NCBI GenBank assembly: GCA_007121775.1
Contig: SKJY01000118.1
Location: 1-38,195, forward strand
DNA: 38,195 nucleotides
Source: Gemmatimonadota bacterium
GTDB lineage: Bacteria; Gemmatimonadota; Gemmatimonadetes; Longimicrobiales; Gaopeijiaceae
Direction: 5' to 3'
Position numbers and translations under genes: made by a program
Part shown: positions 29,267 through 36,579 of the stretch, one piece after another
How the letters are laid out: each line of letters opens with the position of its first letter
How positions within the stretch are numbered: the stretch's first letter is position 1
Notes under the pieces: model-generated
Told to the model about the DNA's origin: nothing
What the model saw: the letters and a program-made list of their open reading frames with translations, nothing else
Database searches by the model: none

Positions 29267-30193
29267 TCAGGGAGAGAGGTCAGCGCGGTAGTTGCCGACG
29301 AATTGGAAGAAGCGGGCCATCTCCACCATATCCGGAGCCTGGTAGCGCACCGTGCGGGCTCCGACCCGCTCCACGATGGGGAGGTAGGCCAGGACCTCGG
29401 CGGCCCGGTAGTGCTTGAAGCTGAGCTCCAGCGTCACCGGGGTGTCCAGGCGATAGGGCTCGAAGTCGTCCAGTCGCTCGAGGGCACGCCGGGCACCCTC
29501 CCGGATCATGCGCTGGGCCCGGGCCGGCGTCACTGTCCGGGCTGAATGGAAGCCCAGCGCCTCCTTCACAGCTACGCCCTCCACATCGCCCAGGAAGCCC
29601 CTGAGTTCATCCACAGTCACGTTGTCGCCTGTAACCAGAGCCACGGGGACACCGAAGTGTCCGGCCAGCGCGGCGTTGATCGCCCCCTCCGGCATGGCCT
29701 GGCCGTTCAGCGCCACCGATGTGTAATTGGCGCTGGAGAAGGTGTGGGCCCGAACCCCTTCCGGGTTCGTGGCGGCGGAGTGGTAGCCGATGAAGAAGAC
29801 CGCATGGAAGGTCTCATCGATTCCCTCCATCATGTGCATGGGCCGGGGCCAGGCCCGGACGATCTCCACATCCTCCGGGAACCGGTCGATGAGGAGGTTC
29901 TGTCCGTTCCCATGGGAGTCGGCGACGACAAAGTGGGTAGCTCCCGCCTCCCGGGCGCCCTGGATGGCGGCCAGCGTCTCCTCGGTGGCGATCTCCCGGA
30001 AGCGATTGTACTCGAAGCCCCCCGGCCCCAGCTGTTCACCGGTGACGGCACCGGCGAGCCCCTCCATGTCAACGGAGATGAAGACCCGGAGCTCCCGGGG
30101 TTCGGGGTCGTCGCTGCGGGGCGCATCCCCGAAGGTGGCGGGGAATCCGGCGGCCAGGGCGGCGCCGGCCAGGAGGGGGATCAGGTCCAGCAT
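29267..30193 (-). CDS. M55-family D-aminopeptidase (DppA-like), exported
   Basis: RVFISVDMEGLAGAV; FVVADSHGNGQNLLID; RAWPRPMHMMEGID; AVFFIGYHSAATNPEGVRAHTFSSANYTSVALNGQAMPEGAINAALAGHFGVPVALVTGDN. Confidence 0.92.
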   Translation of the reverse strand: MLDLIPLLAGAALAAGFPATFGDAPRSDDPEPRELRVFISVDMEGLAGAVTGEQLGPGGFEYNRFREIATEETLAAIQGAREAGATHFVVADSHGNGQNLLIDRFPEDVEIVRAWPRPMHMMEGIDETFHAVFFIGYHSAATNPEGVRAHTFSSANYTSVALNGQAMPEGAINAALAGHFGVPVALVTGDNVTVDELRGFLGDVEGVAVKEALGFHSARTVTPARAQRMIREGARRALERLDDFEPYRLDTPVTLELSFKHYRAAEVLAYLPIVERVGARTVRYQAPDMVEMARFFQFVGNYRADLSP

Positions 30194-30293
30194 GGGCGTA
30201 TCCTCCGGTGGGGCGGACGGGGAAGGGACCGGGCGTCTTCCCGGATCAGGGGGAAGGGGGCCACGGCCGAGCGAGGCCCCCGGGGCGCTTCAG

Positions 30294-30383
30294 GCGGCCG
30301 ACCTCTACGGTGGTGACCTCCAAGGTGGTGACCTCCAGGGTGGTGACCTCCAAGGTGATGAACTCTACCGTAGTGAGGTCGTG
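30294..30383. repeat. 15-bp tandem repeat, six units
   Basis: GCGGCCGACCTCTAC GGTGGTGACCTCCAA GGTGGTGACCTCCAG GGTGGTGACCTCCAA GGTGATGAACTCTAC CGTAGTGAGGTCGTG, read directly; + frame reads AADLY GGDLQ GGDLQ GGDLQ GDELY RSEVV. Confidence 0.85.
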
Positions 30384-30406
30384 GACTCATGGTGGATCGT
30401 GCCTCG

Positions 30407-32065
30407 TTACCGGTCCAGGCCGGCGCTGCGGAAGGCGGAATCCACCACGGCCCGGGCCTCCTCCACGATGCGGTCCAGGTGGGCCGCGTCACGGAAGCTC
30501 TCGGCGTAGATCTTGTAGATGTCCTCCGTGCCCGAGGGGCGGGCGGCGAACCAGCCGTCGTCGGCCACCACCTTGAGCCCGCCGATGGGTGCTTGATTGC
30601 CCGGGGCCCGGGTGAGCCGGGCACGGATCGGTGAGCCGGCCAGCTCCCGGGCCGTCACGGATTCGGGGTCGAGCGCCTTAAGGACGGCCTTCTGGGCCGC
30701 TGTGGCCGGTGCCTGGTCCCGTCGGTAGAGAGGAGAGCCGAACTCTGCTTCAAGTTCCCGGTACCGCTCCCCGGGATCCTTCCCCGTGCAGGCGGTGATC
30801 TCGGCGGCCAGGAGGGCCAGAAGGATCCCGTCCTTGTCGGTGGTCCAGGGGAGCCCATCCTTGCGGATGAAGGTGGCGCCGGCGCTCTCTTCGCCCGCGA
30901 AGGCCAGGGAGCCCCCGAGGAGCCCGTCCACGAACCACTTGAACCCCACCGGGACCTCCACCAGCGGGCGACCCACGGAGGCCGCTACCCGGTCCAGCAT
31001 GGAGCTGGACACCAGCGTCTTTCCCACACCCATCTCCGGCCCCCACCCCGATCGGTGCCGGAAGAGGTAGTCCACCGCCACCGCCAGGTAGTGATTGGGG
31101 TTCAGGAGTCCCTGGCCGGGGGTGACGATCCCGTGTCGATCCACATCCGGATCATTTCCGAAGGCCAGATCGAAGCGATCCTTGAGGGCCACCAGCCCGC
31201 TCATGGCCCAGGGCGAGGAGCAGTCCATCCGGATGACCCCGTCCGAGTCCCGGGGCATGAACCCGAAGGTCGGGTCTACCGCCGGGTTCACCACCTCAAG
31301 GTCCACCCTGTAGCGCTCAACGATGCGCTCCAGCACCTGGATCCCCGCACCTCCCATGGGATCGGCCCCGATCCGGACCCCCGCCCGGGCTACTGCTTCC
31401 AGGTCCACCACCTGGGTCAGTCCTTCCACATAGGGGGTGGTGAAGTCCCGGCGATGGGTGCTCCCGGCGGTGAGGGCGCGCTGGTATGGGATCCGGGGGA
31501 GCGAACGGACCCCCTCCTCCAGAAGCTCGTTGGCCCGATCCTGGATCCGTCGGGTCAATGCCGTGTCCGCTGGGCCCCCGGAAGGAGGATTGTACTTGAA
31601 GCCGCCGTCCTGCGGGGGGTTGTGGGAGGGGGTGATCACGATGCCGTCGGCGGGGGCATGGGGGTGCTCACGGTTCCAGGAAAGGATGGCGTGGGAGACC
31701 ACCGGGGTGGGGGTGTACCCCAGTTCGGCGTCCACCTGCACTGGGATCTCCCTGGCGGCCAGCACCTCCAGCGCCGTTCTGCGAGCGGGCTCCGAGAGGG
31801 CGTGGGTGTCCATCCCAAGGAAGAGGGGACCCCGCACCCCCCACTCGGCCCGGAGTTCGGCCACGGCGTGGGTAATGGCCAGGATGTGCTCTTCGTTGAA
31901 GGTGCCGGCCAGGGCGGTGCCGCGATGGCCGGAGGTGCCGAAGGAGACGCGTTCGGCCGGGTTCGAGGGGACCGGCGACCGGGAGCCGTAAGCCCGGAGG
32001 AGGGACTCCAGATCCACACGTTCGCCCTCAGGCAGGAGGTGTCCGGCGTCGGGGTGTACACTCAC
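30407..32065 (-). CDS. pgm: Phosphoglucomutase (alpha-D-glucose phosphate-specific)
   Basis: [81 protein letters not shown] start at 32065. Confidence 0.93.
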
Positions 32066-33138
32066 GGAGTGCTCTCCTCCATCAGGGTGGTCCAGGTGAT
32101 GCGGGATAGTTCGGCCAACACCCGGGATCCCTCCTCCTTGTCGTCATACCCTTCGGAAAGGGTGACCAGGAGGTAGGGGGCCCTGCCCGGGATCCGGACG
32201 ATGGCGCCGTCGTGGAGGATCCGTGTGATGGAGCCGGTCTTGTTCCCCACCCGGACTCCCCCCTCCAGCGCGGAGGCCGGGATGCCGGCGGGGATTTCAG
32301 ATCGGAACTCCTGGCCGTCCAGGACCTCCAGCATTTCGTCGCATGAGGCCCGGCTCGTCACTTCGCAGCGGGCGATGGCGTCCAGGACCCTCAGGTATGC
32401 CCGAGCCGTGGTTCGGTTGCTCAGGCCGGCCTCGAAGGCCGGGATGTCCGAAACTCCCCGGACCACTTGCATCTCCTCCGCGCCAATCCGGGCCATGGTG
32501 GATTGGACCGAGTCGGGGGTCAGGAGTTCCAGGAGAAGATTCGTTCCAAGGTTGGACGAGACCTGGATCATCCCCTCGGCGATGCGGCGGGCCGGAAGCT
32601 CCTGGCCAAGGGCCTCCATGAGCCCCTCATCCACATCCTCGTCCAGGGTGAACTCGCTCCCATCATACACACTCCGGAAGGTGTTTCTCACCGGCACCGG
32701 TTCGTCCAGCGATCGGAGCCCAAGTTCGCTCTGCCGGTACCATTCCAGGAGGACCGGGACCTTCATGGTGGAAGCCGCGTGGAACGATCGCTCCGCACCC
32801 ACCTCCACGGACCGGCCCGTATGGAGGTCCAGGAAGGCCACCCCCAGGTGGATGCTGTCACCCTCCTGGGCGATCCGAGCCAGTAGTCGCTCTTCCAGAA
32901 GGGGCCAGGGAGACACCTCCAGAGCCCCAGGGGACGACTCTTCCGCAGCGCCATCGGGGAGCCCCTGGTCGATGCCGGGCCGGACCGTCGGGGCCTCGCC
33001 GGCGACGTCGGGGATGGCCGCCGCGGAGGCGGTCGCGTCGACGCCGTCACGGTCATTGGCGGACCCGCACGCGGCCATGAGGCCAACGAGTCCGACGGTG
33101 GTCCAACGGAGGGTGCTTAGGGCGCTCACCGGCTCCAT
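32062..33138 (-). CDS. Class A beta-lactamase-fold serine hydrolase, lipoprotein
   Basis: Lipobox-like LMAACGS; SxxK ([13 protein letters not shown]); [13 protein letters not shown] at the SDN position; [16 protein letters not shown] (KTG motif). Confidence 0.85.
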
Positions 33139-33941
33139 CCCCGGGCGTAGAGGTCGCCCCGCACCGCCAGGTAGCCCGGATAATCCCCCCTAGCCTCTCC
33201 GACGCGCTCGGACTCCAGGACCACCACCGCTACCGGATCCACCGTCTCCAGGACCACCTCCCCGTCGGGAGCCACCACCACCGAGGGGCCTCCGATTGGG
33301 ACTCCAGGCTCCGGCTCCGGGCGATTCACCGAGATGAGGTACGCCCCGGAAGTGAGGGCCACGGTTCTCAGGACCATCCGCCAGCGCTCCCAGCTCTCTC
33401 CCGGCGTGGCCCGGGGCAGAAGGAGGGCCTGAGCTCCCTCCATCGCCAGAAGGTGGCAGCCGGCGGGGCGATAGACGTCGGAGCAGACCTGCACCCCCAC
33501 CGGGAACCCCTGCACCGGAACAGGCGAGGGAAGCTCTGAGCCCGCCTCGTAGTGCTCCGCCTCCCAGAATCCCTCCTCCCGGGGCAGGTGGGTCTTCCGG
33601 TATCGCTGCAGGATCTCTCCCCGGTCATTGAAGAGAAGGCCCTCGTTGAAGCGGCGACCGGACTGGGGGTCTTCCACCACAGCTCCCCCCAGGAGGGCGA
33701 TCCCCGCCGCCGCCGCGGCTTCGGCCTGCCGGCGCTCCCGGCCTTCACCGGGACCCTCAACCATCCCGGGGCGAGGCTCCTTGGTGGCCGGGAACCAGGG
33801 GTGGAGGGGAAGCTCGGGGAGGACGGCCAGTTCCGCCCCCTCCGCCCGGGCCTGCCCCAGGCGGACCTTGAGGCGCTCCGGGCCGTCCTGGTCATGGAAC
33901 GTTTCGGTGATGAGCGCGACAGCCAGGGTGGTACCGGCCAC
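33126..33941 (-). CDS. Carbon-nitrogen hydrolase (nitrilase superfamily)
   Basis: Glu-Lys-Cys triad contexts: LPELPLHPWF, YRKTHLPREEGFWE, GVQVCSDVYRPAG. Confidence 0.88.
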   Translation of the reverse strand: MAGTTLAVALITETFHDQDGPERLKVRLGQARAEGAELAVLPELPLHPWFPATKEPRPGMVEGPGEGRERRQAEAAAAAGIALLGGAVVEDPQSGRRFNEGLLFNDRGEILQRYRKTHLPREEGFWEAEHYEAGSELPSPVPVQGFPVGVQVCSDVYRPAGCHLLAMEGAQALLLPRATPGESWERWRMVLRTVALTSGAYLISVNRPEPEPGVPIGGPSVVVAPDGEVVLETVDPVAVVVLESERVGEARGDYPGYLAVRGDLYARGWSR

Positions 33942-34099: not shown

Positions 34100-35596
34100 T
34101 CACCGGCGCCGGAGCCGCAGCACCAGAATGGAGATCTCCGGGTCTGCGGGAACGACGACGACCCGGTCTCCCCAGAGGGCCGTCGGGCCTGCCGCCGGAA
34201 GAAGGAGGCTTTCAAGGTACTCCCCTGAATCGCCTTCGTAGAGGTCGAGCCAGCGACCGGCTTCCGGCGTTTCGCCGAAGAAGCGGATGGCGAGTCGACC
34301 ACCGCCATCTCCGGATACCTGCCCGGCGGCGAAGGTCGGTTGCTCCATCAGGCGGGTCGTCATCGTCTGGTTCCCATCAGAGGACCGTCGTTCCACCACC
34401 CCTGGAAAGGGAATGGCCTCGGGATACGCCGGTGGGTCACCCAGGGCTTCCAGGCGATCCATGCGAAAGAACCCGTCCCCTACCGTGAATGCGTAGACCC
34501 ACCGGCCGTCAGGCCATCCATCGGCGTCCACAAGCCCCACTGCCTGCCCTTGGAGCGCGAGGGCAGCCGCCCCCGGCTCCACCCCGGGAATGGTAATTCG
34601 AGCGCCCCGCTCGACCGTCCCTTCCCAATCGACACGAACCGGGACCAGGCCCCCGTCCGTCATCATCCCGAAGATCCCATCCGGCGCCAAAGCGAAGGAC
34701 ATCAGCGTCCCGTCGAGTCCACCTAGAGGGATCTCCCTCACCAAGCGCCCGGATTCATCAAAGGAGGTGACCCGGAGGTTGGTCGCATCCAGGACATGAA
34801 CGGCCCCCTCCGGATCCACATGGAGGGTTCGGGGATTCAGGAACTCACCCGGGCCGCTTCCCCTGCGTCCCGCGTACCAACGGAGCCCACCGTCCCAGTC
34901 CAGGTGTGCCAGGCGCTGGGCCGCCCGATCCAGTACCCAGAAGCCTGCTTCTCCCGCCGCCAGGGCATCGGCGCTGAACAGCAGGGTGTCGGTGGTGGGG
35001 ATCTGGCGATGGACCAGAGTGTCCCAACTCACCGCCACCTCCGCCCGAACCGGTCGGGATCGGTCCCAGGCTTCGACACTGTCGCTCGCCCCACACCCGC
35101 TGAGAAAGACACTGCCCAGGACCGGGGTTGCCAGGGCCGGAAGCAGGAGGAGTGGGAGTCCGGTGGAATCCCCTCCGGAATCGGACGGCCCCTCGACCCG
35201 ACGGCGGCGCAGGATCGGCACACCCGCCAGGAATACCAAGAGGGCCAGGGGGATCTGGGCAGCCAGTCTGGTTTCGGCCCGGAGAACCTGCTGGTCCACA
35301 TCCCTCTCCACTTCCCGGGTCTGCACCAGGAGCGGTGTCCGGATCTCTGTGGTGGTGGCCACCGCCGGATTGCCACCAGATGCCCCCCGGGGCACATCCA
35401 CCCCAGATCGGGCCCAGATCTCAGGTCCCCATGCACTGCCAAGCCCGGCAGCCACCCAGCAGGCCAACCAGAGCCACCGGCGGCGGCTTGTGGGCCAGCG
35501 GAGCGGATAGGCGATAGGCGATCGGTAGATGTCCCATCCCATGATGAGCCAGACGGCGACCAATCCGAAGGTCAGGGTCCACAGCAGGGATTCCAT
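34100..35596 (-). CDS. Membrane protein fused to a C-terminal 6-bladed beta-propeller domain
   Basis: N-terminal TM helices (LLWTLTFGLVAVWLIMGW; LACWVAAGLGSAW; IPLALLVFLAGVPIL); C-terminal propeller pattern FWVLDRAAQRLAHLDWDGGLRWYAGRRGSGPGEFLNPRTLHVDPEGAVHVLDATNLRVTSFDESGRLVREIPL; SD GAGGTGA before ATG 35596. Confidence 0.75.
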   Translation of the reverse strand: MESLLWTLTFGLVAVWLIMGWDIYRSPIAYPLRWPTSRRRWLWLACWVAAGLGSAWGPEIWARSGVDVPRGASGGNPAVATTTEIRTPLLVQTREVERDVDQQVLRAETRLAAQIPLALLVFLAGVPILRRRRVEGPSDSGGDSTGLPLLLLPALATPVLGSVFLSGCGASDSVEAWDRSRPVRAEVAVSWDTLVHRQIPTTDTLLFSADALAAGEAGFWVLDRAAQRLAHLDWDGGLRWYAGRRGSGPGEFLNPRTLHVDPEGAVHVLDATNLRVTSFDESGRLVREIPLGGLDGTLMSFALAPDGIFGMMTDGGLVPVRVDWEGTVERGARITIPGVEPGAAALALQGQAVGLVDADGWPDGRWVYAFTVGDGFFRMDRLEALGDPPAYPEAIPFPGVVERRSSDGNQTMTTRLMEQPTFAAGQVSGDGGGRLAIRFFGETPEAGRWLDLYEGDSGEYLESLLLPAAGPTALWGDRVVVVPADPEISILVLRLRRR

Positions 35597-35648
35597 GTCT
35601 CACCTCGGGTCAGAGGAGGAAGAAGGAGGGCACGGGGCTTAACCCATG

Positions 35649-36311
35649 TCACGGATCGACCCATGGCGTGGGGCTCCCATCCCTGGGGGCATTGCCCCGG
35701 GTAGGAGGGATGGACTCGGCTGCGGCGAGCGCCACCGCCGTCGCGAGCCCTGGCACGGCACCAGTGGGCGTGAAGTCACTGGCCAGTACGGTGCGGCCCC
35801 TGGCATCCACCACCAGTAGCGCAGGAGATCCCTCCACCGCCATGGTGCGAAGGGCTCGAACCGCCCGGTTCGCGTCGGAGGGAGCGAGCCGCGGGAGTCC
35901 ATCAAATAAGGCGGTCAGGGACGGGGGGAGGGACAGGCCCTGGGCACCCATCTCCGCAACTGCCACAGGTAGCGGTTCCGGCCGGAGCTGATGGGGGACC
36001 GACTCCGCCCGGCCCTGGTCGGGGGCTGGCACCGCCGCTGGAGCGAGGCGAGCGAACCAGCGTTCCAGGGTGGTCGTGCGGTCCGGACAGTCTCCGGGCT
36101 GAACCACCAGGATCACCCCGCCTGTGGGAAGATCCTGGAATGCCGCTGGAGCACGCCCGTTGGCATCCATCCAGGAGAGGCCCAGGAGGGCCAGGGCCAC
36201 CCCAATCAGGGCGCCGGATAGCCACCCCGACCCCCCTTGGGAGGCCGGGGCGGCGATTGTTTGCTTCCCGAGGGAAGCCCTGCGAGTGCGCGGTCGATCC
36301 GTCATGACCAT
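35649..36311 (-). CDS. Membrane-anchored thioredoxin-fold-like protein with a single Cys (CPDR)
   Basis: TM segment GWLSGALIGVALALLGLSWM; GGVILVVQPGDCPDRTTTLERWF resembles beta1-CxxC-alpha of Trx folds; VEGSPALLVVDARGRTVLAS resembles the cis-Pro/beta-hairpin of TlpA-like proteins. Start 36311 or 36305. Confidence 0.6.
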   Translation of the reverse strand: MVMTDRPRTRRASLGKQTIAAPASQGGSGWLSGALIGVALALLGLSWMDANGRAPAAFQDLPTGGVILVVQPGDCPDRTTTLERWFARLAPAAVPAPDQGRAESVPHQLRPEPLPVAVAEMGAQGLSLPPSLTALFDGLPRLAPSDANRAVRALRTMAVEGSPALLVVDARGRTVLASDFTPTGAVPGLATAVALAAAESIPPTRGNAPRDGSPTPWVDP

Positions 36312-36375
36312 AGTGTTCCGGGACCTGGGTGTGGAGTGAAGTGCCTTGAATCGGCTCAGTCGAACTCGTTCGTCC

Positions 36376-36579
36376 CTACTGGAGAGCGGTGGTGCCCCAG
36401 TAGTCGTAGGTCGTGGTGCATTGCCGGAAGAAGAGGATCCCGGCGCAAGCCTGGTTCTCCTTACAGAGAACCTCTCCGGGTCCACCGCAGTCGGCAGCGG
36501 CGATCTGGGTGTCGGGGGCCGCTGTGAAGAAGGCAGTTCCAGCCAGGAGCATGGCAGGGAGAGTGAGCTTCTTTCGCAT
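36376..36579 (-). CDS. Small secreted cysteine-rich peptide (67 aa)
   Basis: Strong SD AAAGGAG 8 nt before ATG; signal MRKKLTLPAMLLAGTAFFTAAPDTQIAAA followed by DCGGPGEVLCKENQACAGILFFRQCTTTYDYWGTTALQ (4 Cys). Confidence 0.7.
   Translation of the reverse strand: MRKKLTLPAMLLAGTAFFTAAPDTQIAAADCGGPGEVLCKENQACAGILFFRQCTTTYDYWGTTALQ

Follow-up and report, generated by a model that had tools for sequence, protein, structure and literature searches.

A recurrent gene module in Gemmatimonadota with a secreted cysteine-rich peptide, a monothiol thioredoxin-like protein, a membrane module and an NHL-type propeller

Introduction

The mau gene set of methylamine dehydrogenase includes mauB, mauA, mauD and mauE, which encode a propeller protein, a small cysteine-rich subunit, a thioredoxin-like protein and a membrane protein, respectively. 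As cited in the part of the decRiPPter survey used here (PMC7794033), MauE is thought to help disulfides to form in the small subunit, and the same part describes homologues of mauE and mauD that adjoin Cys-rich precursors without other mau genes. The RiPP candidates of that survey resemble the locus analyzed here, because a Cys-rich precursor is placed beside redox-type membrane and thioredoxin-like proteins; however, as far as this part of the paper goes, they originate from Streptomyces, have precursors with at least 8 Cys and a MauE-type membrane protein, and no propeller is mentioned (PMC7794033). The ranthipeptides in a paper on Gemmatimonadota (PMC11651109) are of a different, thioether kind.

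According to the preliminary description of the DNA analyzed here, small peptides with a leader also occur close to genes of propeller and TlpA-like type in Bacteroidota, at the NVEALA loci (PF14055, PF17170). Regarding single proteins, TlpA, ResA and DsbE share with our locus a membrane-anchored thioredoxin fold and the positions of the nucleophilic Cys and the cis-Pro, while the NHL six-bladed propellers of Brat, TRIM2, the PknD sensor domain and ScyF share the propeller fold. In the open-access literature that was searched, neither NVEALA, DUF5128 nor such a gene set was named, and the set might be described elsewhere.

Results

The window, i.e. the whole stretch of 38,195 nucleotides that was analyzed, represents contig C26 in a draft genome of 3.25 Mb and 95% completeness. 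Three co-directional ORFs on its minus strand, on which all features mentioned below are located, encode a secreted four-Cys peptide (67 aa, 36376-36579), a membrane-anchored monothiol thioredoxin-fold protein (220 aa, 35649-36311) and a membrane domain that continues into a six-bladed NHL-type propeller (498 aa, 34100-35596); the gaps between them are 64 and 52 bp. The preliminary description had postulated such a three-gene row with gaps of about this size, made up of a signal-peptide-bearing four-Cys peptide, a TM-anchored thioredoxin-fold-like protein with a lone Cys and a TM domain joined to a beta-propeller, and all of this is borne out by the ORFs and, for the two larger proteins, by the predicted structures. 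The peptide start is preceded by an AGGAG ribosome-binding site. At four related loci (L033-L036) the thioredoxin-like gene and the fusion gene share 13 bp, which suggests translational coupling. Further downstream on the same strand (29267-33941), genes of nitrilase type, for a serine hydrolase lipoprotein, of phosphoglucomutase type and of DppA type are found, which are common to G001 and partly to G005, not to more distant relatives of the module; the nitrilase, hydrolase and phosphoglucomutase genes were rejected as module parts, because they are common only to the nearest relatives.

The peptide (MRKKLTLPAMLLAGTAFFTAAPDTQIAAADCGGPGEVLCKENQACAGILFFRQCTTTYDYWGTTALQ) has its Cys residues at positions 31, 39, 45 and 54. 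Three segments can be distinguished by comparison of relatives: an unusually conserved Sec-type signal peptide as leader (residues 1-29, MRKKLTLPAMLLAGTAFFTAAPDTQIAAA, 36493-36579), the core C-x7-C-x5-C-x8-C-TTTYDYW (residues 31-61, 36397-36489) and an unconserved C-terminal tail (residues 62-67, 36379-36396). Among near relatives of the window's group the leader is 90-97% identical with pN values of 0.02-0.05, and its identity falls to about 60% between genera, whereas control signal peptides of three genes from neighboring DNA are only 29-50% identical (for two of the control pairs the genomes are those of the first peptide pair, while the third comes from more distantly related genomes). 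Because the leader is far more conserved than these controls, it seems to do more than direct export and may, for instance, be recognized by a partner. Between near relatives synonymous changes dominate, with Nei-Gojobori dN/dS values of 0.14-0.26 (0.03 in one near-identical pair) that are based on small numbers of changes; the short ORF thus passed the test for purifying selection that had been proposed for it, and the substitutions indicate that core and leader are constrained while the tail is free. The peptide had no match in Pfam and NCBIfam. With a view to a possible RiPP nature, the leader is conserved and the tail is free, and no known RiPP enzyme was recognized among the neighbors inspected by eye. 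Two other readings of the N-terminus were rejected: a lipoprotein, since most members have D, E or T ahead of the first Cys, which is incompatible with a lipobox, and an uncleaved TM anchor, since the leader contains no 19-residue stretch of TM-like hydropathy.

Most peptides of the other loci can be written as C-x6-8-C-x5-8-C-x4-23-C followed by aromatic residues, and one simple pattern fits 34 of the 46 listed, which is a description and not a test, because the pattern was written after the peptides had been seen. Longer peptides with YKD-like ends occur in the f5 genomes, and two or three different peptides are arranged in tandem around the propeller in g14 and g28 (L132, L148, L149). In g28, three different secreted four-Cys peptides follow the propeller (L132:3669-4462, L149:3651-4444), with dN/dS of 0.7-0.9 between the two genomes from few changes. 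Two tandem peptides of different types are located upstream of one thioredoxin-like/fusion pair in G002 (L034:465-1143), the first of which probably has an orphan peptide of G007 (L130) as its orthologue. In addition, two thioredoxin-like genes flank a propeller and a six-Cys peptide in G054 (L113:2094-4565, contig C115), and a Cys-rich peptide similar to the latter is present in L135. A peptide paralogue in G147 (L129:290-5624, contig C12) is flanked by a set of ABC-2/DUF3526 transporter genes and by a GGDEF gene; no thioredoxin-like or propeller genes are nearby, and the full set is found elsewhere in this genome.

The thioredoxin-like protein contains C75 as the sole Cys among its 220 residues; its exact start is ambiguous by two codons (M1 or M3), with the G001 relative starting at the equivalent of M3. 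The residues D74, C75, P163 and D169 are invariant in all 26 aligned sequences. Asp74-Cys75 (36087-36092) takes the place of the first Cys of a CxxC motif, and Pro163 (35823-35825) in a [TS]P motif is of the cis-Pro type. The second Cys of CxxC is kept in none of the 26 sequences, i.e. the protein is no dithiol oxidoreductase by this measure, and Cys75 can be regarded from the alignment as a conserved monothiol site. AlphaFold2, run on the 26 relatives, predicts a TM helix (residues 29-52) followed by a thioredoxin fold with a core pLDDT near 90, in which the superfamily core and the cis-Pro are both found. In Foldseek, the best PDB matches of this model are of thioredoxin, TlpA and DsbE type, and the model is placed among TlpA, ResA, DsbE and tryparedoxin proteins, with TM-scores of 0.3-0.5 that are modest partly due to the extra termini. 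In the profile search against PDB sequences, the region around C75 corresponds to the first Cys of DsbE-type proteins at marginal E-values (0.05-0.07). In contrast to TlpA, ResA and DsbE, the module protein lacks the second Cys, shows D-C instead of W-C and matches no Pfam family; the NCBIfam scan gave no match either. Its dN/dS between near relatives is 0.27-0.54 (Nei-Gojobori), and its identity with G001 is 55% compared with 84% for the peptide. The scan of genome contigs with this protein as sole query found no match, because the family diverges fast.

The fusion protein starts with a membrane module (MEM, residues 1-135, 35192-35596) consisting of TM1, an Arg-rich loop, TM2, a small beta domain with an RTP motif, and TM3; it has no conserved Cys. 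It is followed by TM4, at the end of which a lipobox-type Cys168 (LSGC, 35093-35095) stands ahead of the propeller domain (residues 185-498, 34103-35044), which is supported by profiles, predicted structure and Foldseek. AlphaFold2 on the relatives' alignment predicts the order TM1-TM2-four-stranded small beta domain-TM3, then TM4 and about 24 propeller strands, and the best PDB matches of the model are NHL six-bladed propellers (E 5e-13), which places the domain in the NHL fold. In Pfam and NCBIfam, weak matches to DUF5128, NHL and ScyF were the strongest for the propeller; with DUF5128 (PF17170) the window protein scored 16.4 bits and stayed below the gathering score of 22.9, and weak similarity to this family was found in 8 of 9 propeller members (best E 1.7e-4). 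The fusion shows dN/dS of 0.15-0.21 between near relatives (Nei-Gojobori). It differs from the NHL propellers Brat, TRIM2, PknD and ScyF in its lipobox, the fusion to a membrane domain and its partner genes.

The two halves of the fusion occur apart in other genomes. MEM is encoded by a gene of its own in L131, L141, L142, L144, L147 and L039. In family f7 (L131, L141, L144, L147), peptide, thioredoxin-like protein and propeller are followed by a stand-alone protein with three TMs, which is matched by the N-terminal part of the window fusion. In G030, one locus (L038) holds the peptide, the thioredoxin-like protein and a plain lipoprotein propeller, while at another (L039) the MEM part adjoins a peptide without a propeller. 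A single contig of G169 (L142:4006-5350) carries peptide, thioredoxin-like protein and MEM with no propeller between them, unlike its family relatives. The lipobox-type Cys after a hydrophobic helix is kept in the fusions as well as in the separate lipoprotein form L038, and the propeller would accordingly classify as a lipoprotein with putative cleavage. Because MEM is separate elsewhere and the lipobox Cys is kept, the window fusion has united a membrane protein with a lipoprotein propeller while retaining the lipid-anchor signal. A separate lipoprotein made from an internal start within the fusion was rejected, since the sole nearby in-frame start (GTG) has no ribosome-binding site; hence, a true fusion is the preferred reading of the gene.

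An alignment search of genome contigs for close peptides matched six Gemmatimonadota MAGs. Several of the matching MAGs presumably come from soda lakes, as read from their isolate names. Of the 8 genomes of the same genus that were searched, 6 contain the set, which also occurs in other families, with fusion relatives in G001, G002, G003, G007 and, as two pieces, G005 of the same genus, and in G026, G028 and other family members. Its presence is patchy, because G006, which is 95% complete, has no close relative of the fusion. In the phylum, the peptide profile matched 28 of 399 genomes, a few of them weakly, and the thioredoxin-like profile 46 of 399 genomes from 18 genera; both counts are probably lower bounds, as 8-15 candidates were scored per genome. 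HMM scans identified a co-directional propeller directly downstream at 43 of 46 distinct thioredoxin-like loci (44 of 47 when L045 and L145, which are one place, are counted separately). A Cys-rich secreted small ORF, detected as a secreted small ORF with at least 3 Cys or by the peptide HMM, lies beside about 43 of these 46; the loci without a peptide match are L139 (contig end), L133 (2-Cys version) and L134. This detector found 49 ORFs in 275 kb near module genes and 2 spurious-looking ones in 214 kb elsewhere, a 19-fold higher density that is partly built in, because peptide HMM matches also defined what is near, although most peptides adjoin thioredoxin-like genes. Examined genomes with a confident peptide match also carry the thioredoxin-like gene, and the extra orphan peptides (L039, L129, L130) occur in genomes that have the full set elsewhere. 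The set is kept in at least five Gemmatimonadota families, and its flanks vary by genus: MutS in the window's clade, aminotransferase-type genes in G026 and relatives, amidohydrolase-type in G024/G025 and cation antiporter-type in family f7, all named by resemblance only. Neither the peptide nor the thioredoxin-like protein found a match in the plasmid search, and the PADLOC search for defence systems gave no match. A promoter scan yielded no usable signal.

Hence, the co-occurrence in related genomes that the preliminary description had made a test of its proposal is found, and so is its expectation of recurrence with variable peptides, including the different tandem ones. The proposed three-gene system stands as a recurrent module; its count needs correction to four modules, as MEM is a gene of its own in f7.

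Discussion

The nearest working model for these genes is the MauA/MauD/MauE/MauB set. We tentatively read the operon, with the chances on both sides nearly balanced, as a module dedicated to folding and docking a single small disulfide peptide within the cell envelope, which would be analogous to the mau set in its parts and not homologous to it. Sec would export the peptide, and its leader would be cleaved behind the A-A-A. The membrane-bound thioredoxin-like protein may then hold it via a transient mixed disulfide at Cys75 and help its two disulfides to form or rearrange. Once folded, the peptide would use its aromatic end to dock on the propeller; the latter may be held at the membrane by the lipid anchor and/or the membrane module, and the docked or released peptide might act as a subunit, a sensor ligand or a secreted effector.

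This reading is favored because the order and common direction of the genes are repeated in genera whose flanking genes differ, because the thioredoxin fold is combined with a TM helix and the invariant D74, C75, P163 and D169, and because the peptide core and leader are under purifying selection with a free tail. MEM is regarded as a linked part, because one clade has it fused to the propeller and another has it as an adjacent gene of its own. The published parallel of mauE and mauD homologues beside Cys-rich precursors, in the part of the survey cited above (PMC7794033), points in the same direction. The earlier suggestion that the thioredoxin-like protein acts on the peptide disulfides needs correcting insofar as it must allow for the absent resolving Cys; catalytic oxidoreductases do not usually have a lone Cys with neither a resolving partner nor an evident electron donor, which counts against the folding role, and MEM offers no conserved Cys. 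The thioredoxin-like protein also evolves faster than the peptide, more than expected of an enzyme, and the G169 locus has peptide, thioredoxin-like protein and MEM, yet no propeller beside them.

A wider reading, doubtful but quite possible, is a phylum-wide system in which the constant monothiol thioredoxin-like, NHL propeller and three-TM proteins would mature and bind diversifying secreted disulfide peptides, recognized via the conserved leader and the C-terminal aromatic motif, for cell-cell communication or conflict. The main rival to a folding and docking module is that the peptide is a released signal or antibacterial peptide with the propeller as its receptor or self-protection, while the thioredoxin-like protein merely aids folding. 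The different tandem peptides in some genomes (two in L034, three in L132 and L149), the high dN/dS of the g28 arrays from few changes, the strong differences between peptide classes of different families and the paralogue next to ABC-2/DUF3526 transporter genes are in line with it. However, the core is strongly conserved in the window's clade, unlike in an arms-race peptide, and no constant dedicated exporter, protease or immunity-type gene and no PADLOC match were found, which makes this rival rather unlikely.

The preliminary description had also linked the genes to NVEALA, and descent of the module from the Bacteroidota NVEALA/TlpA/six-bladed-propeller neighborhoods, as their Gemmatimonadota branch, could explain why the same kinds of parts, as stated there, come together with a propeller that in 8 members weakly resembles DUF5128 (best E 1.7e-4). 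The link is unsupported and common descent improbable: at the curated cut-off, PF14055 matched the positive control Bacteroides ihuae, but had no match among 13 aligned peptides or in 151 Gemmatimonadota genomes, and no NVEALA motif was found in the peptides, which differ from those of the NVEALA loci in their motif. In the plasmid search with the propeller, a single fragment of Phocaeicola massiliensis was found (L150, OY726033.1), with no NVEALA-like peptide seen beside the propeller. Although labeled as plasmid, it carries genes of carbamoyl-phosphate synthase type (large) and tryptophanyl-tRNA synthetase type that look chromosomal, and it may be a mislabeled chromosome fragment.

The correspondence of the four module types to mauB/A/D/E could also be taken literally, with the peptide as the small structural subunit and the propeller as the large subunit of a periplasmic enzyme like methylamine or quinohaemoprotein amine dehydrogenase. 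This is very improbable, since the Pfam scans revealed no common sequence family, the peptides match neither the MADH light chain nor QHNDH gamma, MEM does not match MauE, and many peptides contain one Trp or none and hence no TTQ. Moreover, the thioredoxin-like protein is monothiol and not dithiol as in the mau set, the propeller is six-bladed and of NHL type, and no cofactor-maturation gene was seen among the adjoining genes. Finally, a coincidental neighborhood, in which an unrelated small secreted protein stands beside a propeller and a periplasmic redox protein of general function, conceivable given the spurious small ORFs common in high-GC DNA and the abundant propellers of these genomes, is hardly credible and already contradicted by 46 loci in five or more families with different flanks, the 19-fold enrichment of peptide ORFs and the signs of purifying selection.

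The gene module is apparently new in parts and layout, and comparison with the NVEALA loci of Bacteroidota could make it a variant of an equally uncharacterized kind. Three of its four parts, i.e. the peptide, the thioredoxin-like protein and the membrane module, match no Pfam family, and these parts nonetheless travel together across a poorly cultured phylum. The recurring layout and the clear peptide motif make the role of small secreted peptides beside propellers directly testable. If the proposed mechanism is true, it would represent a new way in which the bacterial envelope folds and holds a disulfide peptide, and one small client would have a one-cysteine thioredoxin to itself.
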